Source: Enterobacter kobei (GTDB lineage Bacteria > Pseudomonadota > Gammaproteobacteria > Enterobacterales > Enterobacteriaceae). From it: a DNA stretch of 64,000 nt. Under the pieces are notes generated by a model. That model ran no database searches and was not told where the DNA came from. It saw only the letters and a program-made list of their open reading frames with translations. Position numbers and translations under genes: made by a program. Positions 1,347-33,179 of this stretch are shown here, piece by piece. Location: the NCBI RefSeq assembly GCF_001729765.1, contig NZ_CP017181.1:3720001-3784000 (forward strand), written 5' to 3'. Numbering within the stretch: position 1 is the first letter of the stretch; each line of letters opens with the position of its first letter.

Positions 1347-2726
1347 CTAGCCCACAGTACCCCAGACCAGATTTCCCTTATGGAACGTCGCGGTACGCGG
1401 TGAAATCCGCGCCACGGCTTCGGCGGAGCACGAGGCATCCACCAGCACAAAGCTGGCATCGTCCTGCGCTTTCGGCCACACCCGTTCGCCTTTGTCGTTC
1501 AGCGGCAGAACGTCACCGGTCGCGATACCGAGCGCCCGGGAAAGCGTCTGCTCGTTCGGGCGAATGTACAGCTGCGCGTAAAGATTGGCTTTTTCCAGCA
1601 TATCTCCCAGGCCGTACGGCGACCAGTGGTCGATCACGCTGTCGGTGCCGGTCATGACAAACACGCCCTTATCACGCAGCTGTTTCAGCGGCATATGGAG
1701 GGTACCAATCGGCACGGTAGAGGCGATGGTCACCTGCTGCGCCGCCATACGGGTCGCAATCGCATCCACCTCCTGCTCGTTAAGCGTCGCCAGCGCGAAG
1801 GCGTGGCTGATAGTCAGCTTGCCCTTCAGCTCCGGCGTTTTCTCCACCGTTTCCACCATGTAATTCACCGCCGCCACGCCCGCCGGGCTGGTTTCATGCA
1901 GGTGAATATCCACCCCTTTGTCGTAATCCAGCGCAATCTGGAACATCAGATCGAGGGATTTCTCCATCGCGCCGTCGACGTTCGTCGGGTCCAGCCCGCC
2001 CACGTAGTGCGCACCGGCCTGCATCGCGTCGCGCATCAGTTTTTCAGAATGGGAAAGCAGCAGTCCGTGCTGTGGAAACGCGACAATTTCACAGTCAAAG
2101 CCAGGCTGGCGGCGCGATAACACCGCCTGCAGATTTTCCAGGTTTTTCAGGCCGGAAACCGGCTCAATGTTGCAGTGGCTGCGGGCGATGGTGGAACCTT
2201 TCGACTGGATCAGGTCGATAAGTGCCTCCGCGCGTTCCTGGGTGTAGGGCTGCAGTTCCGGCAGCAGCTTCTGCTCAAGGCGGATCATGTCCTGAATCGT
2301 GGTCCCCGCCGGGCGGTTCAGGGAGCGCCACGGACCGCCGTAGAAGGTTTTATCCAGATGGATGTGCATGTCGCGCATCGCCGGGAGCATCAGTTTTTTA
2401 CCCGCGTCATAGTGAGGCAGAGACGCGTCGGCGTGGCTAATGTTATCGCGCAGGGCGACGATCTTGCCGTCTTTAATCTCCAGCGTTTTCAGCTCGGTGC
2501 GAGTGCTCGTCGCCACGCTGCCGTCGAAAGTAAACCCGGCTTCGAGCAGCACGTTGTCCAGATAGTAATGCTTCGCGGTGATGTTCATCGGTTTACCGGT
2601 CTCGCAGGCGGGCGCAGCGGTATCCGCAGCATACGCGACGGAGCCGGTGGCACCAAACAGCGCGCAGGCGGTGACCATTTTGCCGCTCTGGCTGATAAAT
2701 TCGCGGCGGCTTTTATTATCATTCAT
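1347..2726 (-). CDS. Tat-exported amidohydrolase of the cytosine deaminase (CodA) type
   Basis: A 459-residue metal-dependent hydrolase. The start at 2726 follows GAAGGA at the end of the carbamate kinase gene; a second possible start lies five codons upstream. The N-terminus reads SRREFISQSG followed by a hydrophobic stretch ending AYA-AD, a twin-arginine export signal with cleavage near residue 34. The mature part carries the metal ligands HIH in DMHIHLDKTF (about residues 121-123), then SHCN, DIHLHE, ISHA and a GTDSVIDHW motif, the pattern of CodA-like deaminases and cyclic amidohydrolases. It is the last gene of the ankyrin-fdrA-ylbE-permease-carbamate kinase operon. I infer periplasmic ring opening or deamination of a nitrogen heterocycle or ureide, whose product the permease imports. 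The substrate is not deducible. Confidence 0.85.
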   Translation of the reverse strand: MNDNKSRREFISQSGKMVTACALFGATGSVAYAADTAAPACETGKPMNITAKHYYLDNVLLEAGFTFDGSVATSTRTELKTLEIKDGKIVALRDNISHADASLPHYDAGKKLMLPAMRDMHIHLDKTFYGGPWRSLNRPAGTTIQDMIRLEQKLLPELQPYTQERAEALIDLIQSKGSTIARSHCNIEPVSGLKNLENLQAVLSRRQPGFDCEIVAFPQHGLLLSHSEKLMRDAMQAGAHYVGGLDPTNVDGAMEKSLDLMFQIALDYDKGVDIHLHETSPAGVAAVNYMVETVEKTPELKGKLTISHAFALATLNEQEVDAIATRMAAQQVTIASTVPIGTLHMPLKQLRDKGVFVMTGTDSVIDHWSPYGLGDMLEKANLYAQLYIRPNEQTLSRALGIATGDVLPLNDKGERVWPKAQDDASFVLVDASCSAEAVARISPRTATFHKGNLVWGTVG

Positions 2727-2727
2727 C

Positions 2728-3684
2728 TTATTTTCCTTCATTCACAATATGGGTACCGGTTTCCCCGCGCAGTGCCGCGGGCAGACAGTCCGGGGAGGTG
2801 ATAATCACTCGCCTGCCGCCGTGGTGTAAAAATTCCAGCGAGGCCACGATTTTGGGCAACATGCTCCCTGCCGGGAAATGGCCTTCCTCCATGTAGCGCG
2901 TCATCTGCGCCACGTTGACGGTATCCAGCGCCTGCTGGTTCGGCTTGCCGAAGTGAATGCACACCTTCTCCACGCCGGTGGTGATGACCAGCACGTCGGC
3001 GCGGATCTCCCGTGCCAGCAGCGCGGTGGAGAGATCTTTATCTATTACCGCGTCGACGCTGCGGTAGTCGCCCTGCTCCGAGCGCACGACGGGAATTCCT
3101 CCACCGCCCGCGCCGATCACCACAAAACCTTTTTGCGTCAGCGCCTTGATGGCATCTGCCTCTACGATGCGCAGCGGCTGCGGCGAGGCCACGACGCGGC
3201 GATAGCCGCGGCCTGAATCCTCGACAAAATGCCAGTCCGGGTGCGCCTGCTGCAGATTATTGCGCTGCGCCTCGCTGAAGAAAGCGCCAATCGGTTTCGT
3301 CGGGTGCGTAAAGCCGGGATCGTCTTTATCCACTTCGACCTGGGTGACGATCGTGACCGCTTTTTGCTCCCCGCGCCCCGCCAGGCGGTTATTAAGTGCC
3401 TGCTGGATCAGGTAGCCGATTCCGCCCTGGGTATCCGCGACGCAGTTTGCCAGCGGCGTCAGAGGGAGCCCTTCCCGTTCGTGAGCGATTTCGGCCCGGC
3501 GCAGATCCAGCCCCACCTGGGGACCGTTGCCGTGGGTGAGTACGATGTCATAGTCGGAGGCCAGCATCTCGAGCACGGACTCTGCCACCGCTTTGACCGC
3601 CTGCGCCTGATGCTCAACCGACTGGCTGGCGTTGTCTTTGATAATGCTGTTGCCGCCGATGGCGACGACCATAAGCTCTTTCAT
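2728..3684 (-). CDS. arcC: carbamate kinase
   Basis: A 318-residue amino-acid-kinase-fold enzyme, the normal ArcC size. It opens with VVAIGGNSI, has LTHGNGPQVG near residue 48 and GAGGGGIPVV near residue 195, all hallmarks of carbamate kinases. In catabolic settings the enzyme turns carbamoyl phosphate and ADP into ATP, CO2 and ammonia. Its ATG overlaps the permease stop as ATGA, and the amidohydrolase ribosome site lies inside its last codons, so the three genes are translationally linked. By context it corresponds to the allantoin-pathway carbamate kinase (AllK/YbcF) rather than that of the arginine deiminase pathway, since no arcA or arcB is nearby. The symbol names the family; the exact paralogue is uncertain. 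Confidence 0.92.
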   Translation of the reverse strand: MKELMVVAIGGNSIIKDNASQSVEHQAQAVKAVAESVLEMLASDYDIVLTHGNGPQVGLDLRRAEIAHEREGLPLTPLANCVADTQGGIGYLIQQALNNRLAGRGEQKAVTIVTQVEVDKDDPGFTHPTKPIGAFFSEAQRNNLQQAHPDWHFVEDSGRGYRRVVASPQPLRIVEADAIKALTQKGFVVIGAGGGGIPVVRSEQGDYRSVDAVIDKDLSTALLAREIRADVLVITTGVEKVCIHFGKPNQQALDTVNVAQMTRYMEEGHFPAGSMLPKIVASLEFLHHGGRRVIITSPDCLPAALRGETGTHIVNEGK

Positions 3685-5234
3685 ACGTTTTCCTTCGCAA
3701 CGGTACCAGTCGCAGCGCTCGCCGCTTCGCGGCTATCCAGCACATGCTTCACCACAAACATGCCGCCCATCATCAGGTAGGCCGTAACGAACATCAGCGA
3801 ACTGCCTTCGGCAAAGCCCACCACCGGGGCGTGGATCACCCCAAACAGTGCCAGCAGCGCCCCACCCGCGGCCGCAACGGCCCCGCGCAGCGGCTTGTTG
3901 ATGATGGCGAAGATAGCGATACAGCCCCACAGCATGCTGGCAAGCGGCGCGCCGTTGCCGAGATGCATCAACCCTTCATAGTAAATCCCTTTGCTGTGCA
4001 GCACGTCGGTGCCGATTTTCGCTGCGCTGGTCCCTGCCGCATTCATCACGCTGTTCATCATGGTGAGCGCCCAGTTGGCGATCCACGGGAACAGGCAGAT
4101 GAAGATGACGGGCACCTCCACTTTCGGCGTTTCCCGCACCACCTGGTTAGCGGTAACGACGCCGATAAACACCAGAATGGGCACGATGGCAGTCATCGGA
4201 ATGATGGCGAGCATAAACGCCCCCAGCCCGAACAGCGGCACGATGAACATGGTCACCCCGGAAGCCAGCGTGTAGCCAATGCTGGCCCCCATCGCTTTCC
4301 AGCCCGGGTGGCCGACGTAGACCGTGACCGGGAACGGGTTACCCATCAGGCAGCCCAGCATCGACGCCAGACCGTTCGCCAGCATCACCTTACGGGTCGG
4401 GTACTCATCCCCCGCCGCGTGGGCGCTTTCGATGTTCTCCAGGTCAAAGATATAGTTCGCCAGCCCCAGCGGCACGGCGGATGCCAGATACGGCAGCGCG
4501 TGCGGCAGCCCCTGCATAAAGCTGTCGACGTGCACTTCCGGCGGGTTAAAGCCGAAGGATGACATAGACGCCTTAATGGCTTCCGGGCTTTGCAGCCCCG
4601 AGATCCACGCTAATGCCGTACCGGCAATCAGCAACAGCAGACCGGTCGGGATTTTGGCGAAAATCGGCTTTTTGCCGAACCAGTTGATAAAAATCAGCAG
4701 CAGTACGATGAATGACACGGTCGGCGCTTCAAACGCCTGCAGCATCGGGTTCATCGCCAGCAGCAGCAGGCCTAAACCGGAGAGACACGACAGCAGCACG
4801 GTGCGCGGGATCATCTTGCGGATGGTCTCCCCGAGGAACGAACCGCCCGCGAGGATCATTGCTTCCACAAAGCACCACACCAGACCGATCTGAATCGCGA
4901 AATCCGCATCCCCGGTCTGCTGGTAGACTGGCATGAGGACCAGGAAGGTCACGGTAAAAATCGACGGCGCGCTCGGGCCGGACGGCAGCGCCGTCACGTC
5001 CGTGCGCCCGGTGGCACGGGCCATCTGCAGGCCAAACCAGGCATAACAGATGCTCGCCACCAGCACCGCCAGCCCGAAGGCTGGCGCGATGCGTCCATAA
5101 ACAATCTCCTTCGGGATGCCGACGACAAAAATGAGCAGCCCCATCATGGTCAGCAAATTGGTCAGGTTGTTGGTCATCAACCCGAAATAAGCCGCCCAGT
5201 CACCTCTTTTCCACTCCAGTTTCATGTTTTTCAT
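3681..5234 (-). CDS. NCS2/AzgA-type permease
   Basis: A 517-residue integral membrane protein with about twelve to fourteen hydrophobic segments. The family is suggested by the N-terminal WKRGDWAAYFGLMTNNLTNLL, the TALPSGPSAPS loop, and a central segment with GNPFPVTVYVGHPGWKAMGA, which resembles the motif region of nucleobase-cation symporters. The start at 5234 has AAGG nine bases upstream; a second ATG three codons later is possible. It is preceded by a 12-base gap from the YlbE-like gene and overlaps carbamate kinase by four bases. It probably imports the purine, pyrimidine or ureide made or modified by the exported amidohydrolase. Direction and substrate are inference. Confidence 0.82.
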   Translation of the reverse strand: MKNMKLEWKRGDWAAYFGLMTNNLTNLLTMMGLLIFVVGIPKEIVYGRIAPAFGLAVLVASICYAWFGLQMARATGRTDVTALPSGPSAPSIFTVTFLVLMPVYQQTGDADFAIQIGLVWCFVEAMILAGGSFLGETIRKMIPRTVLLSCLSGLGLLLLAMNPMLQAFEAPTVSFIVLLLIFINWFGKKPIFAKIPTGLLLLIAGTALAWISGLQSPEAIKASMSSFGFNPPEVHVDSFMQGLPHALPYLASAVPLGLANYIFDLENIESAHAAGDEYPTRKVMLANGLASMLGCLMGNPFPVTVYVGHPGWKAMGASIGYTLASGVTMFIVPLFGLGAFMLAIIPMTAIVPILVFIGVVTANQVVRETPKVEVPVIFICLFPWIANWALTMMNSVMNAAGTSAAKIGTDVLHSKGIYYEGLMHLGNGAPLASMLWGCIAIFAIINKPLRGAVAAAGGALLALFGVIHAPVVGFAEGSSLMFVTAYLMMGGMFVVKHVLDSREAASAATGTVAKENV

Positions 5235-5245
5235 GGATACATGCC

Positions 5246-6661
5246 TTATAAAACGTAGCGATCGCGGAAGGTCAACAGCGCCTTTTCAAAACAGCTGAAC
5301 GGCGGGTGAACGATGCCCGCCCCAATCATGCCGATACCGGCGTCCTTGTGGGCAATGGCGGTATTAATGACCGGCAAAATGCCGCTGCCTGCCACTTTGG
5401 TGATGTCGATGGCAGTCGGGATGCCCATAAAAGAGAGCAGCGGAATGGTGACGTTCGGGTTTTCGCCGAGGGTGATTTCGCGCATCTGGCGGGAGAAGTC
5501 GATGGCTTCTTCCACCGTGCCGCCCACCAGCGCCACAATCGCCGGCGCCGTCGCCATGGCAAAACCGCCGATGCCGTAGGTTTCCGTAATTGCGCTGTCG
5601 CCGATATCCAGCCCGGAGTCTTCCGGCTTATAGCCCGCAAACATCGGGCCAATGACCTGCTGCGCCGGGCCGGTGAACCATTGCCTCGGCAGGCCGGAGA
5701 CGCGCAGACCGAACTCGTAGCCGTTGCGCGCCATGGTGGTGACAACGGTGCTGTACTCAATGCCGTGGGCGGCGTCCAGCGCGGCTTTGCACATTGCCAT
5801 CCACGTCGGGCCGGAGAAGTAGTCGCTGCTGGCGACAAACTCGAACACCTCACGCTGCTGCTCAACAGGATAACCCGCCTGGATCAGACCCGGCGTCAGG
5901 GCCTGGATCAGCAGCGTAGTGCCCGCGTTGTTGCGGTTGTGGCACTCGTCGCCCATGTGCAGCGCCTGGGCCAGCATCAGACGAAGATCGATTTCACCGA
6001 CGATCTTCATCGCGTCGCGCAGCATCGGGCCGAGCACGTCGCGCATCCAGTTCAGGCGGTCAATCACGCTCTGGTCGTTGGCGCCCATGCGCAGGATCTT
6101 CGCCATCTGCTCGCTGAGGTTGGTGAACGCGCGGTTGCCGTAGGTTTTGTTCTCAACGATGTGCATAAACATCGACGCGGAGGTGACGCCCGCCATCGAG
6201 CCCACGCAGTCGTGCTCGTGGCACGGCGAGAAGGTAATTTCCCCTGAAGCGGCGAGCCTTGCAGCCTCCTCGAGATCCGCCGCCAGCCCCTCGAACACCA
6301 GCGCGCCGGTGACCGCCCCTTTCATCGCCCCGCACATGTTTTCCCACGAGACAGGCGGACCGGCGTGCAGGATGGTGGTGCGGGTCATGCGCGGCACGAC
6401 GTTAATCGCCTGGTCATAGCCCACCAGCACCGGGTGGGACTGAATAATGCGCTCAAGCGCGATGTGGTTAGCGGCGGCAATTTTCTCCGCCAGCGATTTT
6501 TCGGCCAGTTGATCGAGCGCCTCAACGATCTGCATGTTGCCCTGCCCTGGCGGCGTCCAGTCGAGCTGGGTCACGGGAACGTGCTGTTTTTTGAGGTCGT
6601 CGCTGAACATCGCGATACCGACGTTAATCACGTTCAGCGGCTGGTTAAATAAGGTGGTCAT
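5246..6661 (-). CDS. YlbE/AllG-like DUF1116 protein, candidate carbamoyltransferase subunit
   Basis: A 471-residue protein of the DUF1116 family, recognisable from the N-terminal LNVINVGIAMFSDDL, the CHEHDCVGSMAGV motif near residue 149, and HNRNNAGTTLLIQ. In E. coli the homologue YlbE (AllG), with FdrA (AllF) and YlbF (AllH), has been linked to oxamate carbamoyltransferase, which splits oxalurate into oxamate and carbamoyl phosphate. The ATG at 6661 overlaps the fdrA stop by one base (TAATG), so the two are translationally coupled. No YlbF/DUF2877 gene lies in the window. The Cys-His-Glu-His-Asp cluster looks like an active or metal site, but that is inference. Confidence 0.82.
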   Translation of the reverse strand: MTTLFNQPLNVINVGIAMFSDDLKKQHVPVTQLDWTPPGQGNMQIVEALDQLAEKSLAEKIAAANHIALERIIQSHPVLVGYDQAINVVPRMTRTTILHAGPPVSWENMCGAMKGAVTGALVFEGLAADLEEAARLAASGEITFSPCHEHDCVGSMAGVTSASMFMHIVENKTYGNRAFTNLSEQMAKILRMGANDQSVIDRLNWMRDVLGPMLRDAMKIVGEIDLRLMLAQALHMGDECHNRNNAGTTLLIQALTPGLIQAGYPVEQQREVFEFVASSDYFSGPTWMAMCKAALDAAHGIEYSTVVTTMARNGYEFGLRVSGLPRQWFTGPAQQVIGPMFAGYKPEDSGLDIGDSAITETYGIGGFAMATAPAIVALVGGTVEEAIDFSRQMREITLGENPNVTIPLLSFMGIPTAIDITKVAGSGILPVINTAIAHKDAGIGMIGAGIVHPPFSCFEKALLTFRDRYVL

Positions 6662-8202
6662 TATGCGTTCTCCCCTTTGCAGACAAATTCGCGAGCCAGT
6701 AATCCGGTATTGGTGCTGCTGCTGGCCCAGATGACGCCCGCATCGGTCAGGAGCTGGCACTGCTGAGCAAGCTTCTGCGGATCCTGGTCGGTACCAAGCA
6801 CATAGCCTAAGAACGCCAGCGGACGGCTGTCGGCCTTCGCGATCGCCTGCGCCTCTTTGATCGCGTCGAGCATCACGCCAACCGGATCCTCATGCGCGCC
6901 AAACCCGAGCACAAAATCCATCACGATGACCCCCACCTGCGGATCGCGCGCCTCCTGCAGCAGGCGGCTGATGCGGTTGGTCGGGTCGATCATCGGGTGC
7001 GGTTTGCCGTTGGTGAAATCATCATCGCCAAAGTCGAGGAAGGTATGGGCCTGGCTGACGTTGATGTCGCTCAGACGCTTCGCCGGATCCGGCTGGATGT
7101 TGCTGTAGACGTCGTCGTACTTCTCCAGCGCCGCAAACATCGCTTCGTCGCACAGGGTCCCACCGCAGAAGAGCCCACGAATGTATTTTTGCTGCGGGGT
7201 CAGGCGGGCGCGCACCTCTTCAATCAGCGGCCAGTTGAGCGGGTGCAAATCCAGAGACGCTTTGTCGATGCCGGTAAGGAGTACCGCTTTCAGGGCTGCC
7301 TCTTTGGTGGCTCGGGCAAACTGCAGGCCGTCTTCATCAGCGGGCGGTACGTTGCGGCCGAGGAAACACACGACGACGGGCTTGCGGCAGGCGCGGGCGC
7401 GGGCGAGGACTTTTTCAGCCACCGCGGGTGCGGGTGGCTTGGAGATGAGGGCAATCACCTGGGTGCCTTCATCGGCCTCCAGCATGTCGATGGCGTCGAG
7501 CATCATCAGGCCGCCGATTTTCTCGCTGAGATCGCGCCCGCCGGTGCCAATCAGCTGCGACACACCGCCGCCGAATTCATGAATGCGCACGCTGAGTTCC
7601 TGGCTGCCGGTCCCGGATGCGCCGACAATCCCAATCGTCCCGCGACGTACCGCGTTAGCGAAGCACAGCCCCGCGCCGTTGATAATGGCGGTGCCGCAGT
7701 CCGGCCCCATCATCAGCAGCCCTTTCTGGTGGGCCAGCTGCTTCAGCGCCAGCTCGTCATCGAGCGACACGTTATCGGAAAAGAGCATGACGTTAAGATC
7801 GTTTTCCAGCGCCTGACGTGCTTCGCGGGCGGCGAAGGTGCCGTTGACGGAGATCACCGCAAGGTTGCTGTCCGGGCGATGGGTTTTGGCGCTGGCAATC
7901 GTGGCGTAGCGCGCTTCGTGGGAGCCGGCACGCTCTTTGCGCGTGAATAACGCTTCGATGGCCGCCAGCGTTTCATCATTCGCCGCATCGCCTTTAATAA
8001 CGATCATCAGATCGCCGTTTTTCGCGTTTTCTAATTCCGGCGTCAGCAGTCCAAGGTTTTTTAATACGCCTTTATTCATCTCCGTCGCCATCGCCACAAA
8101 GGCCTGTTCAACCCCCGGCAATTTATTGGCTTTAGTGGAAACGGACATTAATGAGACGGAGTCAAAATAAGTGTTCTTTTTAATCACGATTTTCGTTGGC
8201 AT
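6661..8202 (-). CDS. fdrA: FdrA-like protein (succinyl-CoA synthetase alpha-like fold)
   Basis: A 513-residue FdrA family protein. The start MPTKIVIKKN at 8202 follows AGGTG eight bases upstream. The N-terminal 170 residues resemble a ligase domain; from about residue 187, GIVGASGTGSQEL and IGTGGRDLSEKIGG match the CoA-binding and ligase fold of succinyl-CoA synthetase alpha. The usual catalytic histidine motif of SucD is not apparent, in keeping with FdrA not being a CoA ligase. With the YlbE-like protein it probably forms an oxamate-type carbamoyltransferase that yields carbamoyl phosphate for the carbamate kinase. It is the second gene of the operon, about 107 bases after the ankyrin gene. 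Confidence 0.85.
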   Translation of the reverse strand: MPTKIVIKKNTYFDSVSLMSVSTKANKLPGVEQAFVAMATEMNKGVLKNLGLLTPELENAKNGDLMIVIKGDAANDETLAAIEALFTRKERAGSHEARYATIASAKTHRPDSNLAVISVNGTFAAREARQALENDLNVMLFSDNVSLDDELALKQLAHQKGLLMMGPDCGTAIINGAGLCFANAVRRGTIGIVGASGTGSQELSVRIHEFGGGVSQLIGTGGRDLSEKIGGLMMLDAIDMLEADEGTQVIALISKPPAPAVAEKVLARARACRKPVVVCFLGRNVPPADEDGLQFARATKEAALKAVLLTGIDKASLDLHPLNWPLIEEVRARLTPQQKYIRGLFCGGTLCDEAMFAALEKYDDVYSNIQPDPAKRLSDINVSQAHTFLDFGDDDFTNGKPHPMIDPTNRISRLLQEARDPQVGVIVMDFVLGFGAHEDPVGVMLDAIKEAQAIAKADSRPLAFLGYVLGTDQDPQKLAQQCQLLTDAGVIWASSSTNTGLLAREFVCKGENA

Positions 8203-8309
8203 TATTTGCACCTGTTTTCGGATAAAAGGGGGCCGCCGTCGTGCAAAATGCACGTCGGTAAAAATGCTTTTTTATTAAGCGGCCAGCCGGAACAGGCTGA
8301 CCGTCGTCT

Positions 8310-8915
8310 TTACGCGCCGGCCGCCAGCAGCAGGTCGGCGATCGCGTGGTAGCCTTTTTCCCGCGCCAGCTCGAGCGGGGTTTTACCGTATTTATCGGTC
8401 ATGTGCGGGTTAGCGCCGTTATCCAGTAACAGCTTCACAATTTCCTGCTGTTTCTCGCCGCCGTCATTCAACACGATGGCCTCCAGCAGCGGCGTCCAGC
8501 CGACAAAGTTGGTGTGGTTGACGTTAATATCGGTTTTTGCCAACAGCTCGCGCACAATTTCAACGTGGCCTTTCTCACTGGCCGGGGTAATCCCCACGCC
8601 ACCGAAGCGCGTCAGGCGATCCAGGTCCGGATTTGCCGGAAGAACGATGCGCAGTAACGTTAAATCATTGGTCAGGCAGCTAATCAGGAAGGGGTTAAAA
8701 CAGGTCTGGTCCTGTTTATCAATATCCGCACCGGCTGCAATTAAAAATTCCACACAGGCATAATGCTTTTTCAGGCTGGCAATAATAATGGCGGTTCTTT
8801 TCTGGCGGTTGGTGGCGTTAATATCCACGCCTTTCTCCAGACAGGCTTTTAGCGCGTCGACGTTCCCCTCTTCTGCCGCCAGCAGAAATTCCGTCACCAG
8901 TGCAGTTGCAGACAT
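8310..8915 (-). CDS. ankyrin-repeat protein heading the fdrA operon
   Basis: A 201-residue soluble protein made almost wholly of ankyrin repeats (about five). Repeat cores include VDALKACLEKGVDINA, KRTAIIIASLKKHYACVEFL, GHVEIVRELLAKTDIN, GWTPLLEAIVLNDG and GKTPLELAREKGYHAIADLL. There is no signal peptide or membrane segment. It is the first gene of the minus-strand operon and diverges from the LysR gene across a 320-base spacer. Ankyrin repeats bind proteins, so a scaffold or adaptor role for the FdrA/YlbE enzyme is possible, but nothing in the sequence shows it. It may instead be an unrelated passenger. Confidence 0.85.
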   Translation of the reverse strand: MSATALVTEFLLAAEEGNVDALKACLEKGVDINATNRQKRTAIIIASLKKHYACVEFLIAAGADIDKQDQTCFNPFLISCLTNDLTLLRIVLPANPDLDRLTRFGGVGITPASEKGHVEIVRELLAKTDINVNHTNFVGWTPLLEAIVLNDGGEKQQEIVKLLLDNGANPHMTDKYGKTPLELAREKGYHAIADLLLAAGA

Positions 8916-9235: not shown

Positions 9236-10165
9236 ATGAATTCCATCTTTACCGAAGAGAACCTGCTGGCCTTCACCACTGCGGCACGTTTTAGCAGTTT
9301 CAGCAAAGCCGCCGCCGAGCTGGGCGTGACCACCTCGGCCATCAGTTACACCATTAAACGCATGGAGACCGGGCTGGACGTGGTGCTGTTTGTGCGTAAC
9401 ACGCGCAGCATTGAGCTGACCGAATCTGGCTTTTACTTTTACCGCAAGGCAACCGACCTGCTGAACGACTTTCACGCCATCAAGCGCGGAATTGATACCA
9501 TTTCGCAGGGCATTGAGGCGCGGGTGCGTATCTGTATCAATCAGCTTTTGTATACTCCACGCCATACTGCACGCCTGCTGCAGGTGCTGAAAAAGCAGTT
9601 TCCCACCTGCCAGATCACAGTGACCACCGAGGTGTATAACGGCGTATGGGATTCCATCATCAACAACCAGGCCAATATCGCGATTGGTGCGCCGGACACC
9701 CTGCTCGACGGCGGCGGCATTGATTACACCGAGATTGGCGCCATCCGCTGGGTATTTGCTATCGCACCGGAACATCCGCTGGCCTTTGTCCCCGAGCCGA
9801 TTGCGGAGAGCCAGCTGCGGCTATATCCCAACATCATGGTGGAAGATACCGCGCACACCATTAATAAGAAGGTCGGCTGGCTGCTGCACGGGCAGGAGGC
9901 GATTCTGGTGCCGGATTTCAACACTAAGTGCCAGTGTCAGATTCTGGGAGAAGGGATTGGCTTTTTGCCGGAATACATGGCCCGCGAGGCGGTAGAAGAC
10001 GGGCTACTGGTCACCCGACGCATCAACAATCCGCGTCAGGATTCCCGCATGCTGCTTGCCACACAACATGCGGCGACCGGCCAGGTCACTCGCTGGATCA
10101 AACAACAGTTTGGTCCAGCGGGCGTGCTGACGAACATCTATAGCGATTTACTCTGGCGGGCTTAG
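9236..10165 (+). CDS. LysR-family transcriptional regulator of the fdrA-like operon
   Basis: A 309-residue regulator with an N-terminal winged helix-turn-helix (FTTAARFSSFSKAAAELGVTTSAISYTIKRME, about residues 12-43) and a C-terminal periplasmic-binding-protein-like effector domain. The ATG at 9236 is chosen because AGGAG lies just upstream; an ATG seven codons earlier lacks one. It diverges from the ankyrin-fdrA-ylbE-permease-carbamate kinase-amidohydrolase operon, the normal arrangement for a LysR activator of a catabolic operon. The inducer is probably the pathway substrate or an intermediate. The 3' end overlaps yqaE by four bases, convergently, marking the right border of the accessory region. 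Confidence 0.9.
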   Translation: MNSIFTEENLLAFTTAARFSSFSKAAAELGVTTSAISYTIKRMETGLDVVLFVRNTRSIELTESGFYFYRKATDLLNDFHAIKRGIDTISQGIEARVRICINQLLYTPRHTARLLQVLKKQFPTCQITVTTEVYNGVWDSIINNQANIAIGAPDTLLDGGGIDYTEIGAIRWVFAIAPEHPLAFVPEPIAESQLRLYPNIMVEDTAHTINKKVGWLLHGQEAILVPDFNTKCQCQILGEGIGFLPEYMAREAVEDGLLVTRRINNPRQDSRMLLATQHAATGQVTRWIKQQFGPAGVLTNIYSDLLWRA

Positions 10166-12526: not shown

Positions 12527-12976
12527 ATGTTCTCGCCGCAATCTCGCCTGCGCCATGCTGTGGCGGATACTTTTGCGATGGTTGTTTACTGTTCCGTCGT
12601 GAACATGCTGATTGAAATATTCCTCTCAGGAATGACCTTTGAGCAGTCACTTTCTTCGCGTCTGGTGGCTATCCCGGTCAACATTATTATCGCATGGCCA
12701 TACGGGTTATACCGCGATGCGGTCATGCGTTTCGCTCGTCGTATCAGCCCCGCAGGCTGGGTAAAAAACCTGGCGGACGTGCTGGCTTATGTGACGTTCC
12801 AGTCTCCGGTATATGTGGCTATTCTGTTAACCGTGGGCGCAGACTGGCACCAGATCGTCGCGGCGGTCAGTTCGAATATCGTTATTTCGATGTTGATGGG
12901 CGCCGTATACGGCTATTTCCTCGACTACTGCCGCCGTCTGTTCAAAGTCAGTCAGTACAGCCAGGCGAAAGCGTGA
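12527..12976 (+). CDS. alaE: AlaE, L-alanine exporter
   Basis: A 149-residue inner-membrane protein, identical in length to E. coli AlaE (YgaW), with four hydrophobic segments. It keeps the family core [32 protein letters not shown] and [16 protein letters not shown]. AlaE exports L-alanine and protects against toxic build-up from alanyl peptides; in E. coli it is induced through Lrp. The ATG at 12527 has AAGGAG nine bases upstream, favoured over an in-frame start eight codons earlier. It is a single gene in the E. coli location. Confidence 0.94.
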
Positions 12977-13008
12977 TGTGAAGCGACTGGCGAATGCCAG
13001 TCGCCAGT

Positions 13009-13353
13009 TTACTGTACGTCGCCAAACAGTCCCTTCAGAAACCGCTCCAGCGCCGTGCGCGAACTGAAGCCATGCGGAATACCATAATGCTCATGCGTTT
13101 CTCCGCCTAAATAGAGCGGGAATTGCTGATAATGATCGCAGGTTTTAATATCCGAGGCAGGCTCAGCAAATGACAGACTTCTGTCTTTCAGCGTCGGGTG
13201 AATAATGAGAGCAGTACGTCCCATTCTGGCTTCACGATTAACATACACATAATTCTCACCGCGGCGATATCCATACGCTTTTGACGTCACCTCATCCATG
13301 GTGAATCCCTCTTTTTCAAGAACGCGTGCCACCTCGTCAGGTCGTAAATACAT
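13009..13353 (-). CDS. ygaC: YgaC, DUF2002 protein
   Basis: A 114-residue soluble protein matching E. coli YgaC (117 residues). Conserved blocks include [42 protein letters not shown] and the [11 protein letters not shown] end. Its E. coli homologue is Fur-controlled and of unknown function. It is transcribed convergently with alaE, 32 bases apart, and divergently from ygaM. No catalytic motif is visible. Confidence 0.92.
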
Positions 13354-13513
13354 ATCTTTTCCTCGTTATCTTTTCCTGCCCGGCAACCTTACAGTATTCA
13401 GCATTAGCAGGGCTTTCAGAATAGTCCATAAACTGCCGGATAACGCGTGACGCGCTTCAGATATTAAATTTCTGAACTAAACTGATCGGGAACGCAAATT
13501 TACGGAGGATCGT

Positions 13514-13840
13514 ATGTTTAACAGACCGAACCGAAACGATATTAACGACGACGCGCAGGATATTCGTAATGATGTCAGCCAATTAGCAGACACGCTGGAA
13601 GAGGTGCTGAAGTCCTGGGGATCAGACGCGAAGGACGAAGCGGATGCCGCAAAACGTAAGGCTCAGTCTCTGCTCCGTGAAACCCGCGCCAGAATGAACG
13701 GACGTTCACGCGCCACGCAGGCTGCCTGCGACATGGCAAGCTGTGCAACGACCTTCGTACGTGAAAAGCCACTGTGTACGCTGGGAACGGTCGCAGCGGT
13801 CGGCATCTTTGTCGGCGCCCTGCTCAGCCTGCGAAAATAA
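13514..13840 (+). CDS. ygaM: YgaM, DUF883 (ElaB/YqjD) membrane-anchored protein
   Basis: A 108-residue protein of the ElaB/YqjD/YgaM family. The N-terminal 75 residues are charged and helical, likely a coiled coil; the C-terminal GTVAAVGIFVGALLSLRK is a single membrane helix that anchors it. Members of this family bind stationary-phase ribosomes and tether them to the membrane. The ribosome site GGAGG lies close upstream. A rho-independent terminator follows at 13856. Confidence 0.93.
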   Translation: MFNRPNRNDINDDAQDIRNDVSQLADTLEEVLKSWGSDAKDEADAAKRKAQSLLRETRARMNGRSRATQAACDMASCATTFVREKPLCTLGTVAAVGIFVGALLSLRK

Positions 13841-13855
13841 GTGCGGCTTCTCATC

Positions 13856-13890
13856 AGCCCCGGTGGCCTCAGGCGCCGGGGCTTTTCTTT
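13856..13890 (+). terminator. ygaM terminator
   Basis: AGCCCCGG and CCGGGGCT form an eight-pair GC-rich stem followed at once by a T-rich run (TTTCTTT), a standard intrinsic terminator 16 bases after the ygaM stop. Confidence 0.85.
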
Positions 13891-13966
13891 GCCTTATCCT
13901 TTGAAAAACCCGTGCAGCCCGCACTGCCCCGCTGAGCTCATCACCAGGGCAACATCAATCTGATTT

Positions 13967-14012
13967 TCCCATATCTTGTATGGTTGAAACTTAAGATAAC
14001 TACATCTAGTAT
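13967..14012 (+). promoter_or_regulatory. tandem NrdR-like boxes before nrdHIEF
   Basis: Two similar sites, CCATATCTTGTATG (about 13969-13982) and ACTACATCTAGT (13999-14010), are spaced 31 bases apart (start to start of ATCTTGT and ATCTAGT), three helix turns. That is the standard layout for the repressor NrdR upstream of class Ib reductase operons. The nrdH start follows about 75 bases later. Binding is inferred from spacing and sequence. Confidence 0.7.
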
Positions 14013-14086
14013 TCCCTTTAGCAAGACACACACAACCTGACGCGATGACTCGCGCCGCTCTCTCATTTTAAATGGAAATACGAATC

Positions 14087-14326
14087 ATGAGCATTATTAT
14101 TTACACTCGTAACAATTGTGTTCAGTGCCATGCCACCAAACGGGCGATGGAAAGCCGTGGAATGGTTTTTGAGATGGTGAATATCGACCAGCAGCCTGAG
14201 GCCGCTGAGACCCTGCGGGCGCAGGGATTCCGTCAGCTCCCGGTGGTCATTGCCGGTGAAACCCGGTGGTCCGGCTTTCGCCCGGACATGATTAACCGTC
14301 TGAGCGCCCAGGCCGCCAGCGCATGA
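14087..14326 (+). CDS. nrdH: NrdH glutaredoxin-like electron donor
   Basis: A 79-residue thioredoxin-fold protein that supplies electrons to the NrdEF class Ib ribonucleotide reductase. The active site is CVQC (residues 10-13 from this start), and the conserved [12 protein letters not shown] lies near the C-terminus. It has a glutaredoxin-like sequence but behaves like thioredoxin, being reduced by thioredoxin reductase. The start MSIIIYTR at 14087 fits E. coli NrdH (81 residues); an in-frame ATG five codons earlier is also possible. The stop overlaps nrdI as ATGA. Confidence 0.94.
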
Positions 14327-14733
14327 GTGGGCTGGTCTACTTCTCCAGCAGCTCGGAAAACACGCTTCGCTTTATCGAGCGCGTCGGGCTGCCTGCGGTG
14401 CGTATTCCGCTTAATGAGCGGGAACGTATTCAGGTAGACGAACCTTACATTCTGGTGGTGCCCAGCTATGGCGGTGGCGGTACGGCAGGCGCCGTGCCTC
14501 GCCAGGTGATCCGCTTTCTTAACGATCCGCATAACCGCAGGCTTATCCGTGGCGTGATCGCGGCAGGCAATCGTAATTTCGGCGATGCCTTTGGCCGCGC
14601 CGGGGATGTCATCTCTCAAAAATGCGGCGTGCCGTATCTCTATCGCTTCGAACTGATGGGGACACAGCAGGACGTAGAAAATGTGCGAAAAGGAGTGAAC
14701 GAATTTTGGCAACGACAACCGCAGAACGGATAA
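14323..14733 (+). CDS. nrdI: NrdI flavodoxin-like activator
   Basis: A 136-residue flavodoxin-like protein that supplies the oxidant needed to build the Mn(III)2-tyrosyl radical cofactor of NrdF. It opens [19 protein letters not shown], the FMN phosphate loop, and has the glycine-rich loop [11 protein letters not shown] near residue 50. The length equals E. coli NrdI. It overlaps nrdH by four bases and nrdE by 28, so the operon is tightly coupled. Confidence 0.95.
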
Positions 14734-16850
14734 TCCAGGCAACACCTGATTACCACGCATTAAACGCAATGCTTAACCTCTATGATCGGGAGGAGCGCAT
14801 TCAGTTTGGCAAAGATCATGAGGCGGTGGAGGCCTTTTTCGCCGCCCACGTCCGTCCAAACAGCGTCGTTTTTGGCAGCCAGCAGGAACGCCTCGACTTT
14901 CTGGTTAAAGAGGGCTATTACGAGGAGCGCGTGTTGACCCGCTACGACCGCGCCTTCGTGGCGAAGCTTTTCGAGCGCGCGCATGCGAGCGGTTTTCGTT
15001 TCCAGACCTTCCTCGGCGCGTGGAAGTATTACACCAGCTACACCCTGAAAACCTTCGACGGTAAACGCTACCTGGAGCATTTTGAAGATCGCGTCGTGAT
15101 GGTGGCGCTGACCCTTGCCCAGGGCGATGAAGCGTTGGCTGAACGGCTGATGGAGGAGATCCTCGCCGGGCGCTTCCAGCCCGCCACGCCAACGTTTCTC
15201 AACTGCGGTAAGGCCCAGCGCGGCGAGCTGGTCTCCTGCTTCCTGCTGCGCATCGAAGACAATATGGAGTCGATTGGCCGTGCGGTAAACTCGGCGCTTC
15301 AGCTTTCCAAACGCGGCGGCGGCGTGGCGTTTCTGCTCTCGAACCTGCGTGAAGCGGGCGCGCCGATCAAGCGCATTGAAAACCAGTCTTCCGGCGTGAT
15401 CCCGGTGATGAAGATGCTAGAAGATGCATTCTCCTACGCCAACCAGCTTGGCGCACGCCAGGGCGCCGGGGCGGTTTACCTGCACGCGCATCATCCCGAT
15501 ATTCTGCGTTTTCTGGATACCAAACGCGAAAATGCCGACGAAAAAATCCGTATCAAAACCCTGTCGCTGGGGGTGGTGATCCCGGATATCACCTTTAAAC
15601 TGGCAAAAGAGAATGCCGAGATGGCGCTCTTTTCGCCGTATGACGTTGAGCGTATTTACGGCAAACCCTTTGGCGACGTAGCCATCAGCGAGCGCTACGA
15701 GGAGCTGGTAGCCGACGAGCGCATCCGCAAAAAAACCATCAACGCCCGCGATTTCTTCCAGACGCTGGCAGAAATCCAGTTTGAGTCTGGCTATCCGTAC
15801 ATCATGTACGAGGATACGGTAAACCGCGCGAACCCGATTGCCGGACGCATCAACATGAGCAACCTGTGCTCGGAGATTTTGCAGGTCAACAGCGCGTCAA
15901 CATACGACGAGAACCTGGACTACGCGGCTATCGGCAAGGATATCTCCTGTAACCTCGGGTCGCTGAATATCGCCCACACCATGGATTCCCCTGACGTCGG
16001 CCGCACGGTGGAGACGGCCATTCGCGGACTGACGGCGGTATCGGACATGAGCCACATCCGCAGCGTGCCCTCCATTGAAGCGGGTAACGCCGCATCGCAC
16101 GCTATCGGCCTGGGGCAGATGAACCTTCACGGCTACCTGGCACGCGAAGGCATCGCCTACGGCAGTCCGGAAGGGCTGGATTTTACTAACCTCTATTTCT
16201 ATACCATCACCTGGCATGCGCTTCACACCTCAATGATGCTGGCGCGCGAGCGCAACCAGCGGTTCGCGGGATTTGAACAGTCGCGCTACGCCAGCGGGGA
16301 ATATTTTAACCAGTATCTTGAAGGCGAGTGGCAGCCGAAAACTGCAAAAGTGCGCGATCTCTTTGCCCGCGCGGGGATAACCCTGCCGACGCGCGAAATG
16401 TGGCAGCAGCTGCGTGATGAGGTGATGCGCCACGGTATCTATAACCAGAACCTCCAGGCCGTGCCGCCGACCGGGTCTATCTCGTATATCAACCATGCCA
16501 CGTCGAGCATTCATCCGATTGTGTCGAAAATTGAAATTCGCAAGGAAGGCAAGACCGGACGCGTTTACTACCCTGCCCCGTTTATGACCAACGACAACCT
16601 GGCGCTGTATCAGGATGCGTATGAAATCGGCCCGGAAAAAATCATCGATACCTACGCCGAAGCGACAAAACACGTGGATCAGGGGCTGTCGCTGACGCTC
16701 TTCTTCCCGGATACCGCCACCACGCGGGATATCAACAAAGCGCAGATCTACGCCTGGAAGAAAGGCATCAAAACGCTTTACTACATTCGCCTGCGCCAGC
16801 TTGCGCTGGAAGGCACCGAAATCGAAGGCTGCGTGTCCTGCGCGCTGTAA
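14706..16850 (+). CDS. nrdE: NrdE, class Ib ribonucleotide reductase large subunit
   Basis: 714 residues, the same as E. coli NrdE when started at TTG 14706 (MATTTAER). That start lies inside the end of nrdI, with AAAGGAG about ten bases upstream. NrdE reduces ribonucleoside diphosphates to deoxyribonucleotides using the radical carried by NrdF. Visible motifs are [14 protein letters not shown] with one active-site cysteine, the NLCSEI region, and the C-terminal EGCVSCAL with the swinging CxxC pair re-reduced by NrdH. As in other class Ib enzymes it lacks the N-terminal ATP cone of class Ia. Confidence 0.95.
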
Positions 16851-17819
<969 letters not shown>

Positions 17820-17910
17820 TGAGTGAATTAACGTTCATTAATTAAATATAAATCCCTTTATTTCTACCAAAATATTTCCCTGGGAACTACACTGTAATTC
17901 CTCTGTCATA

Positions 17911-17939
17911 TTCGCCTGAATCACACCGATTCAGGCGAA
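17911..17939. terminator. 12-pair hairpin after nrdF
   Basis: TTCGCCTGAATC and GATTCAGGCGAA pair perfectly around ACACC. It lies 92 bases after the nrdF stop. No T run follows, so it is either a weak terminator or an RNA-stabilising end of the nrdHIEF transcript. Confidence 0.55.
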
Positions 17940-18056
17940 ATTCCCCGATGCAGCAGCAAAAATTTAAGAAAAACTCAAATGACGCTCAGCCCTTTACTCA
18001 TGGGAAATTCAGCCGTTTCGCTTACCTGAAAATCCCCACCATAAGCAAACGCAGGG

Positions 18057-18084
18057 TTGTCTCAGATTCTCAGTATGTTAGGGT
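18057..18084 (+). promoter_or_regulatory. proU (proVWX) main promoter
   Basis: A -35 TTGTCT (18057-18062) and a -10 TAGGGT (18079-18084) are separated by 16 bases. The unusual TAGGGT preceded by AGTATGT is the same as in the osmotically induced E. coli proU promoter, and the predicted start lies about 60 bases before proV, as in E. coli. Confidence 0.75.
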
Positions 18085-18152
18085 TATGCCCGTTAACAAT
18101 TTACCATGGTAATCATATTGGCATAAACAAATAACAGGACACTCTCTATTGC

Positions 18153-19364
18153 ATGGCAATTAAATTAGAAGTGAAAAATCTTTATAAAGTATTTGGCGAG
18201 CATCCACAGCGCGCATTCAAATATATTGAAAAAGGCCTTACGAAAGAGCAAATTCTGGAAAAAACCGGGCTATCGCTTGGCGTTAAAGACGCCAGTCTGG
18301 CCATTGAAGAAGGCGAGATTTTTGTCATCATGGGGTTATCCGGTTCGGGTAAATCCACTATGGTTCGCCTTCTCAATCGCCTGATTGAACCCACCCGCGG
18401 ACAGGTGCTGATTGACGGCGTGGATATCGCCAGAATATCAGACGCAGAGCTCCGCGAGGTGCGCAGAAAGAAGATTGCAATGGTGTTCCAGTCATTCGCG
18501 CTAATGCCGCATATGACGGTGCTGGATAATGCCGCTTTCGGTATGGAATTAGCGGGCGTTGCTGCGCAAGAACGTCAGGAAAAAGCGCTTGATGCGCTGC
18601 GTCAGGTTGGGCTCGAAAATTATGCTCACGCCTACCCGGATGAACTTTCCGGCGGGATGCGTCAGCGTGTGGGTTTAGCCCGCGCATTAGCCATTAATCC
18701 AGACATATTATTAATGGATGAAGCCTTCTCCGCACTCGACCCGTTAATTCGCACCGAGATGCAGGATGAGCTGGTAAAATTACAGGCAAAACATCAGCGA
18801 ACCATTGTCTTTATTTCCCATGATTTAGATGAAGCCATGCGTATTGGCGACCGAATTGCCATTATGCAAAATGGTGAGGTGGTGCAGGTCGGCACGCCGG
18901 ATGAAATACTGAATAATCCGGCAAATGATTACGTGCGTACCTTCTTCCGCGGCGTGGATATTAGCCATGTGTTTAGCGCGAAAGATATTGCCCGTCGAAC
19001 GCCAAACGGCATTATCCGTAAAACGCCAGGTTTCGGTCCACGCTCCGCGCTTAAGCTTCTGCAGGACGAAGACCGTGAATACGGTTATCTGGTTGAACGC
19101 GGCAATAAATTTGTCGGCATTGTCTCCATCGACTCCCTGAAAACCGCCCTTAGAGAAAATCAGGGAATCGATGCGGCGTTAATTGACGCTCCCCTTGCCG
19201 TGGACGCCGAAACGCCGCTCAGCGAGTTGCTCTCCCACGTCGGCCAGGCACCGTGTGCCGTTCCGGTCGTCGGGGAAGAACAACAGTACGTCGGCATCAT
19301 CTCAAAACGCATGTTGCTGCAGGCTTTAGATCGCGAGGGAGCAAACAATGACCGATCAATCTAA
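18153..19364 (+). CDS. proV: ProV, glycine betaine/proline ABC transporter ATPase
   Basis: A 403-residue ATPase (400 in E. coli). It has Walker [10 protein letters not shown] (near residue 61), signature [10 protein letters not shown] (near 165) and Walker [14 protein letters not shown] (near 185). A C-terminal pair of CBS domains, from about residue 280, senses ionic strength in this OTCN family. It energises uptake of glycine betaine and proline betaine through ProW with ProX. The first part of the gene is AT-rich compared with the rest, like the downstream regulatory element that H-NS uses in E. coli proV. Its 3' end overlaps proW by 17 bases. Confidence 0.95.
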
Positions 19365-32652: not shown

Positions 32653-32729
32653 TGGTGCATCCGGGAGGATTCGAACCTCCGACCGCTCGGTTCGTAGCCG
32701 AGTACTCTATCCAGCTGAGCTACGGATGC
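32653..32729 (-). tRNA. tRNA-Arg (anticodon ACG), copy 4 of transcript
   Basis: A 77-base cloverleaf beginning GCATCCGTAGCTCAGCTGGA with anticodon loop CTACGAA and an encoded CCA. It corresponds to the E. coli argQ/Z/Y/V set, which decodes CGU, CGC and CGA after A34 becomes inosine. It is the last tRNA of the minus-strand array. Confidence 0.97.
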
Positions 32730-32758
32730 ATCAGGGAAATGCTTTAAGAAACAGTAAA

Positions 32759-32835
32759 TGGTGCATCCGGGAGGATTCGAACCTCCGACCGCTCGGTTCG
32801 TAGCCGAGTACTCTATCCAGCTGAGCTACGGATGC
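32759..32835 (-). tRNA. tRNA-Arg (anticodon ACG), copy 3 of transcript
   Basis: Identical in sequence to its neighbours, 77 bases with CCA. The 29-base spacer on each side is nearly the same (ATCAGGGAA.TGCTTT.AGAAA.AGTAAA), pointing to tandem duplication of a tRNA-plus-spacer unit. Confidence 0.97.
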
Positions 32836-32864
32836 ATCAGGGAACTGCTTTCAGAAATAGTAAA

Positions 32865-32941
32865 TGGTGCATCCGGGAGGATTCGAACCTCCGACCGCTC
32901 GGTTCGTAGCCGAGTACTCTATCCAGCTGAGCTACGGATGC
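32865..32941 (-). tRNA. tRNA-Arg (anticodon ACG), copy 2 of transcript
   Basis: A 77-base cloverleaf identical to the other three copies, with an encoded CCA. The spacer upstream of it is 64 bases and unlike the others. Confidence 0.97.
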
Positions 32942-33005
32942 ATCGGGATTTACTACTGTACTGCTCGATATTCATATCACTTCGAAAGCAATATGAAGTA
33001 ATAGA

Positions 33006-33082
33006 TGGTGCATCCGGGAGGATTCGAACCTCCGACCGCTCGGTTCGTAGCCGAGTACTCTATCCAGCTGAGCTACGGATGC
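33006..33082 (-). tRNA. tRNA-Arg (anticodon ACG), copy 1 of transcript
   Basis: A 77-base cloverleaf with an encoded CCA. It is the first arginine tRNA after serV, separated from it by four bases, so both come from one precursor. Confidence 0.97.
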
Positions 33083-33086
33083 AAAA

Positions 33087-33179
33087 TGGCGGTGAGGCGG
33101 GGATTCGAACCCCGGATGCAGCTTTTGACCGCATACTCCCTTAGCAGGGGAGCGCCTTCAGCCTCTCGGCCACCTCACC
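33087..33179 (-). tRNA. serV: tRNA-Ser (anticodon GCU)
   Basis: A 93-base class II tRNA beginning GGTGAGGTGGCCGAGAGGCT with anticodon GCT, a long variable arm and an encoded CCA. It decodes AGC and AGU. It heads the serV-arg tRNA operon, as in E. coli. Confidence 0.97.

Follow-up and report, generated by a model that had tools for sequence, protein, structure and literature searches.

An AllH-less, permease-bearing version of the yah operon in Enterobacter and the ureide catabolism it may encode

What would an operon achieve that encodes AllF and AllG, two subunits of an oxamic transcarbamylase type of enzyme, together with a carbamate kinase, when the third subunit, AllH, is missing? This question is raised by six genes at positions 1347-8915 of the window, by which we mean the whole stretch of 64,000 nucleotides of Enterobacter kobei DNA that was analysed (contig NZ_CP017181.1, positions 3,720,001 to 3,784,000). 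A sequence-only reading of this stretch had described a carbamoyl-transfer type operon of six minus-strand genes with stop/start overlaps. Genes and overlaps are indeed present, in the order ankyrin-repeat protein, AllF, AllG, permease, carbamate kinase and an amidohydrolase here called J, with the gene of a LysR-type regulator divergent from them, and family membership of the predicted products supports a carbamoyl-transfer type of function. The operon is a permease-bearing, AllH-less version of the known yet unexplained yah operon of E. coli.

Judged by pairwise identity and gene order, the Enterobacter gene set is orthologous to yahB-D-(E)-F-G-I-J of E. coli (b0316-b0324 in K-12). Both comprise, in identical order, genes for the LysR regulator (plus strand, 9236..10165, open reading frame (ORF) from 9215; 90% identity to YahB over 308 amino acids), the ankyrin-repeat protein D (8310..8915; 70% to YahD), AllF/FdrA (6661..8202, longest ORF from 8253, 513 amino acids from MPTK; 80% to YahF; NF004760, 502 bits), the AllG/YlbE-type subunit (5246..6661; 90% to YahG), carbamate kinase (2728..3684; 85% to YahI; NF009007, 613 bits) and the amidohydrolase J with its twin-arginine (Tat) signal (1347..2726, longest ORF from 2741; 83% to YahJ); all except the regulator gene lie on the minus strand of the window, where allF and allG overlap in TAATG (6659..6663). 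Different from the window, however, K-12 has YahE (AllH) and YahC and lacks the permease. The position of yahE (AllH, DUF2877) in other genera is taken here by a 107-bp gap between D and AllF (8203..8309, minus strand), and the permease P (3681..5234, minus strand) lies where K-12 carries a repeat array annotated as yahH. This array in the yahG-yahI gap of K-12 (L004:9745-10165) has a period of 93 bp and is REP-like by eye, and the yahH annotated within it is probably no protein gene; given this repeat structure, the idea that yahH is a permease remnant was dropped.

The yah genes are found in most E. coli and in many Enterobacterales. Used as a distant DNA query, the allF-allG stretch matches 5368 of 5426 complete E. 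coli genomes, with at least 80% query coverage in 4992, and the chromosomal E. coli matches listed for it carry the annotations fdrA, yahG and yahE; J is present at 80% of its length or more in 4987 of these genomes. YahJ has been reported as a predicted Tat substrate, and deletion of its gene gave a competitive index of 0.70 (PMC7549933). The sequence-only reading was aware of no pathway described for such a set of genes; the set turns out to be familiar as genes, and no pathway assigned to them was found in the open-access papers searched. The allF-allG-permease stretch also occurs on plasmids, namely in 98 of 72,556 records, 69 of which cover 80% of the query or more; 80 of these 98 plasmids are predicted to be conjugative, and 81 come from Escherichia. 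The single plasmid that was examined (L002) encodes LysR, ankyrin protein, AllH, AllF, AllG, permease and carbamate kinase and lacks J, and its operon thus complements the chromosomal E. coli operon, in which J is present and the permease absent.

That the genes belong together was seen in two samples which share part of their genomes. Sample (a) comprises 80 named loci that were retrieved via the permease and is hence biased towards P; AllF (F), AllG (G), P and carbamate kinase (K) occur in all 80, the ankyrin protein in 79, LysR in 76, J in 75 (it is missing in L064, L068, L081, L084 and L085) and AllH in 52, and the order F-G-P-K is kept in 78. Sample (b) comprises 48 enteric loci found by AllG alone, taken from 49 rows at 296-310 bits after leaving out the window itself and a partial match (G311) and adding another partial one (G338, 243 bits). 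Here F and G are present in all 48, LysR, ankyrin protein and carbamate kinase in 47 each, J in 44, AllH in 43 and the permease in 37, a 3.7-kb contig (L226) being the cause of a single absence in each of five of these counts. The prevailing orders are D-E-F-G-P-K-J (30 loci), D-E-F-G-K-J (11) and D-F-G-P-K-J (3), with D-F-G-P-K, D-E-F-G-K-P, D-E-F-G-P-K and F-G-P seen once each. The co-occurrence on which the sequence-only reading had staked its proposal is thereby borne out. At the Providencia rustigianii locus without J (L068), the region downstream of the kinase gene (12913-18795) contains genes whose products, judged by eye, look like translocators of type III secretion, and in one yah-type operon (L175:11027-12292) the ankyrin protein is longer, 421 amino acids, with a second half that by eye looks TPR-like.

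AllH is missing not just from the operon. A search for PF11392 (AllH) across the whole genome from which the window derives gave no match, with a positive E. coli control, and this genome has a single AllG copy. For the oxamic transcarbamylase of E. coli, a requirement for AllF, AllG and AllH has been reported (PMC11326118). Thus, of the earlier proposal that the operon shares its end step with E. coli AllFGH, the family relationship stands, but with AllH absent from operon and genome the precedent cannot apply unchanged. Among 392 Enterobacteriaceae genomes searched, 108 bear AllG and 100 of these have AllH as well (73/80 and 27/28). Those lacking it comprise four genomes of the window's genus, in which five bear AllG, a pair from genus g110, of which one assembly is fragmented, and the genomes G148 and G345, the AllG match of the latter being weak; the fifth AllG-bearing genome of the window's genus (G366) has a biuret-type cluster with AllH (L220). 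In sample (b), YahE/AllH is absent from 4 of 48 loci apart from one contig end, and among the named loci the operon without AllH occurs in Enterobacter, Lelliottia, Leclercia, Silvania, Huaxiibacter, strain RIT714 and Aeromonas cavernicola, which has AllH elsewhere in its genome. In a tree of AllF, AllG and kinase sequences from 37 hand-chosen loci plus the window, the AllH-less locus of genus g110 (L227) stands on a long branch apart from the Enterobacter group, with uneven support (0.3-0.95 within the Enterobacter group, 0.63-0.80 around L227). From this placement, two losses of AllH look likely.

Do AllF and AllG persist as functional proteins in the AllH-less operons? Full ORFs are found for AllF in 26 of 27 and for AllG in 27 of 27 AllH-less loci, and the ratio of nonsynonymous to synonymous substitution rates (dN/dS; Nei-Gojobori) has a pairwise median of 0.058 in AllF and 0.046 in AllG where AllH is lacking, as compared to 0.053 and 0.048 in AllH-bearing enterics. 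These medians cover sequences of 0.9-1.12 times the median length and pairs whose dS lies between 0.1 and 1.5. Both subunits remain under purifying selection without AllH. Nor does AllH appear to be hidden in a fusion: this possibility was dropped, as AllF and AllG of the window equal YahF and YahG in length. Over 42 residues, the N-terminus of the window's AllG matches the C-terminal end of E. coli AllF (E 4e-7, also as a profile match), and the two types thus carry this segment on different subunits. At AllF residue 452 (numbering from MPTK), 96 of 97 yah-type sequences with AllH have Lys, and all 30 sequences without AllH have Gln, as does L227 in addition; some of these sequences share a genome. 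Since L268 combines AllH with Gln and the site is variable in other AllF types (R, Q, N, L, H, E, D, C and K), we regard a change compensating for the loss of AllH as a mere hint; an alignment of AllG revealed no column that tracks the loss. Natural fusions occur elsewhere, of AllF with AllG in a Bacilli locus adjoining allantoin genes (L205:7835-10843, 1002 amino acids) and of AllH with the N-terminus of AllF in P0281 (822 amino acids) and in P0282 of Zophobihabitans entericus (817 amino acids, by precomputed domains only). Such fusions agree with a physical complex of AllH, AllF and AllG.

What, then, would feed this enzyme? The sequence-only reading had proposed an exported deaminase-like enzyme at the entry, and J agrees with it. 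J is predicted to be exported by the Tat pathway (signal peptide at 2628..2726, minus strand): an RRxF-type motif is present in all 121 orthologs (101 distinct), in 118 by pattern within 75 residues and in three (L016, L060, L275) further in, at residue 90-97 of a longest ORF that starts upstream. Its nearest solved relatives are of AtzC type (161 and 107 bits), followed by cytosine deaminases (58-70 bits). In an alignment of the 121 sequences to E. coli CodA, the positions H61, H63, Q156, H214, E217, H246 and D313 are identical throughout, which we take to be the metal ligands (HxH, H, D) and the catalytic E, H and Q. CodA Asp314, by contrast, is Ser in every J, so that the Asp313-Asp314 pair of CodA is missing. 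J therefore resembles the AtzC/CodA amidohydrolases in sequence family, metal-ligand and catalytic positions and a Trp, and differs from them by this Ser and by its Tat signal.

In other bacteria an unrelated enzyme stands in the place of J. A Brevibacillus locus has a deaminase of the CDA fold in its stead, together with an NCS1 permease; this enzyme shows no visible signal peptide, and its nearest solved relatives are guanine deaminase and guanosine deaminase. It is found in 9 of 11 Bacilli genomes with a yah-type operon, L085/L196 and L175 being without it. The swap has also occurred in an enteric genome (G084, L252), where LysR, ankyrin protein, YahE, AllF, AllG, carbamate kinase and a permease are followed by a CDA deaminase that shares 68% identity with the Brevibacillus enzyme; identity is 51% for the permease, and J is absent. 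J and a CDA deaminase above 150 bits were never found together, neither in the 48 enteric loci nor in 44 AllG loci of a wider set, the two collections scanned (two CDA matches of 86 bits, in L230 and L271, lie below this limit and outside the operon). In the substrates of both the AtzC-type and the guanine-deaminase family, the amino group attacked lies between two ring nitrogens. The exchange of two unrelated deaminases at one position of a conserved operon suggests that both catalyse one reaction and that their substrates are identical or closely alike.

The import step appears to differ accordingly. For the multi-helix permease P, a predicted model built from 62 sequences shows the UraA/UapA (NCS2/NAT) fold, an earlier one from 13 sequences having been discarded as poor (pLDDT 60). 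By sequence, the window permease gives no match to PF00860 at E<=0.001, a homolog (P0026) reaches 25.9 bits against a cut-off of 27, and a PDB search returned E 0.48 or worse. In most loci J accompanies this NCS2-fold importer, and in Bacilli the CDA enzyme accompanies an NCS1 importer; exceptions are some Bacilli that hold both importer types and L252, which pairs CDA with an NCS2-type permease. The pairing of the exported J with the one and of CDA with the other suggests that deamination precedes import in enterics and follows it in Bacilli.

We propose that the yah-type operon encodes a module of ureide catabolism with a logic like that of the arginine deiminase route, a proposal whose chances we consider evenly balanced and whose enzymatic steps we all infer from sequence. 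Tat-exported J would deaminate a small guanidine- or amidine-type, probably heterocyclic, compound in the periplasm to a ureide, and P would bring the ureide into the cell. AllF-AllG would then use phosphate to cleave it, yielding carbamoyl phosphate plus an amide or amine, in the way AllFGH acts on oxalurate, and carbamate kinase, by its family function, would use carbamoyl phosphate and ADP to form ATP, ammonia and CO2. No further hydrolase is encoded in the operon, so the ureide on which AllF-AllG acts should be the product of deamination itself. In Enterobacter the splitting would be carried out by AllF-AllG without AllH, which would make AllH accessory, at least in this branch, and in Bacilli the order of the first steps would be reversed, with the NCS1 importer followed by the guanine-deaminase-like CDA-fold enzyme. 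More tentatively, and with less confidence than we have in the module as such, we suggest a general form of this idea: AllF-AllG would provide the catalytic core for a wide range of ureide phosphorylases, to which AllH is a dispensable accessory, and the yah genes would be an unrecognised ATP-yielding pathway for guanidine-type heterocycles in which two unrelated deaminases, swapped at the entry, dictate the order of import.

An unlikely alternative is that the operon makes oxamate carbamoyltransferase like AllFGH, with J making or feeding oxalurate from a product of purine oxidation. AllF and AllG are homologous over their full length to the E. coli subunits, carbamate kinase follows as in allFGHK, and the nearest NCBIfam models of the LysR regulator are AllS and PunR, although both score below cut-off. 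The yah-type loci, however, have the ankyrin protein and a different front end, and E. coli K-12 contains both operons. Moreover, in the wider set of 44 AllG loci, which was hand-picked from several searches and is no random sample, none of the 15 loci with an ankyrin gene (yah-type; eight with CDA, three with J) has AllC, AllD or AllE above 300 bits, in contrast to 8 of the 29 loci without one, which carry such allantoin genes. Next to the window operon no allantoin genes were found either (neighbours listed up to 14 kb, operon and LysR proteins scanned). An AllC-like M20 hydrolase of about 200 bits lies near the yah-type operon with CDA of two Bacilli (L203:4596-5876, L204:15977).

Improbable, in our judgement, is a biuret/allophanate module, in which AllF-AllG would phosphorolyse allophanate or biuret and J would deaminate a guanylurea- or triazine-like compound to their precursor. 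The AtzC-likeness of J would suit it, and 11 of the 29 ankyrin-less loci, among which L226 is a truncated yah-type contig, pair AllFG with a biuret-hydrolase-family enzyme, in L177 with 280 bits to biuret hydrolase as the best solved match and 118 to RutB. In one such locus (L216:11324-11716) a stand-alone C-terminal domain of allophanate hydrolase (PF21986, 140 bits) adjoins a biuret-hydrolase-type gene, AllFGH and carbamate kinase with no amidase seen adjoining, which suggests that AllFG replaces the amidase there. None of the 15 yah-type loci, however, has a biuret-hydrolase-type gene, and AllG scores (best of three queries) set the two types apart, with ranges of 462-521 and 683-1037 bits. 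A search of open-access papers for N-carboxycarbamate found nothing.

Several observations weigh against the ureide module or against a dispensable AllH. AllF and AllG of the window are merely 40% and 46% identical to the characterised AllF and AllG of K-12, few AllG-bearing genomes (8 of 108) lack AllH, and the second AllH-less line, L227, with its long branch and no J, may reflect decay. Within Citrobacter alone dN/dS is still lower (AllF 0.033, AllG 0.017). The model assigns no role to the ankyrin protein, P is absent from 11 of the 48 enteric loci of sample (b) that retain J, and no deaminase was seen in the operons of two Bacilli genomes and of L081 and L198. A clostridial locus with a further type of front end (L214:1603-9222) combines AllH-AllF-AllG, a CodA-like deaminase and an NCS1 permease with a cyclase-family hydrolase, and ring opening may therefore be a necessary step that is not visible in the window operon. 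Finally, in an E. coli triple mutant allFG restored 7% of oxamate (2.9 +/- 3.3 of 38.3 mM) and allGH 16% (PMC11326118). An allH mutant retained 1.2 of 17.7 mM oxamate, and allF and allG mutants none (PMC11326118). We rejected this residual oxamate as support for a dispensable AllH, since allGH also restores some and YahE could stand in for AllH in the mutant; more generally, the K-12 paralogs YahE and YahF might explain the partial activities, and the string 'yah' does not occur in the text of that report. The published E. coli data thus leave the dispensability of AllH unsettled. We likewise hold it to be improbable that AllF-AllG without AllH is no carbamoyltransferase, having another function such as CoA-ligase-like chemistry or being on its way out: the succinyl-CoA synthetase domains in AllF and the low yield of E. 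coli allFG would agree with this, but dN/dS is as low as in AllH-bearing relatives, frames are intact, and carbamate kinase, P and J have been retained.

If the ureide module is correct, the two unrelated deaminases should share one substrate and thereby offer a shortcut to finding it, and the window pair would be a natural two-subunit form of the oxamic transcarbamylase type that could help to locate its active site. Elsewhere in the window, four tRNA-Arg(acg) genes and one tRNA-Ser(gct) gene are clustered at 32653-33179; an ARAGORN call of tRNA-Arg(tcg) that overlies one of these genes on the other strand is probably spurious.

How does the operon compare with known systems? In comammox bacteria allFGHK lies beside biuret/triuret genes, read there as separate oxalurate and triuret routes (PMC12625717). 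These clusters share AllFG(H)K with the window and join it to a ureide hydrolase; the accessible text mentions neither an ankyrin protein nor a deaminase for them (PMC12625717). In E. coli, allFGHK encodes oxamic transcarbamylase and carbamate kinase (PMC11326118, PMC9843812), the former being described by its discoverers as unlike the classical family (PMC11326118). The window operon resembles allFGHK in having carbamate kinase after homologs of AllF and AllG, but differs in that AllH and adjoining allantoin genes are absent, that the AllF tail segment is found on AllG, and that ankyrin protein, permease and deaminase are added. With E. coli yah it shares orthologous genes in the order B-D-F-G-K-J and lacks YahE. 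The arginine deiminase operon arcABCD encodes a deiminase, a carbamoyltransferase, a carbamate kinase and a transporter. The logic of this pathway would be alike in the yah module, whose catalytic parts except the kinase come from other families and whose deaminase, different from that of arcABCD, is predicted to be exported.

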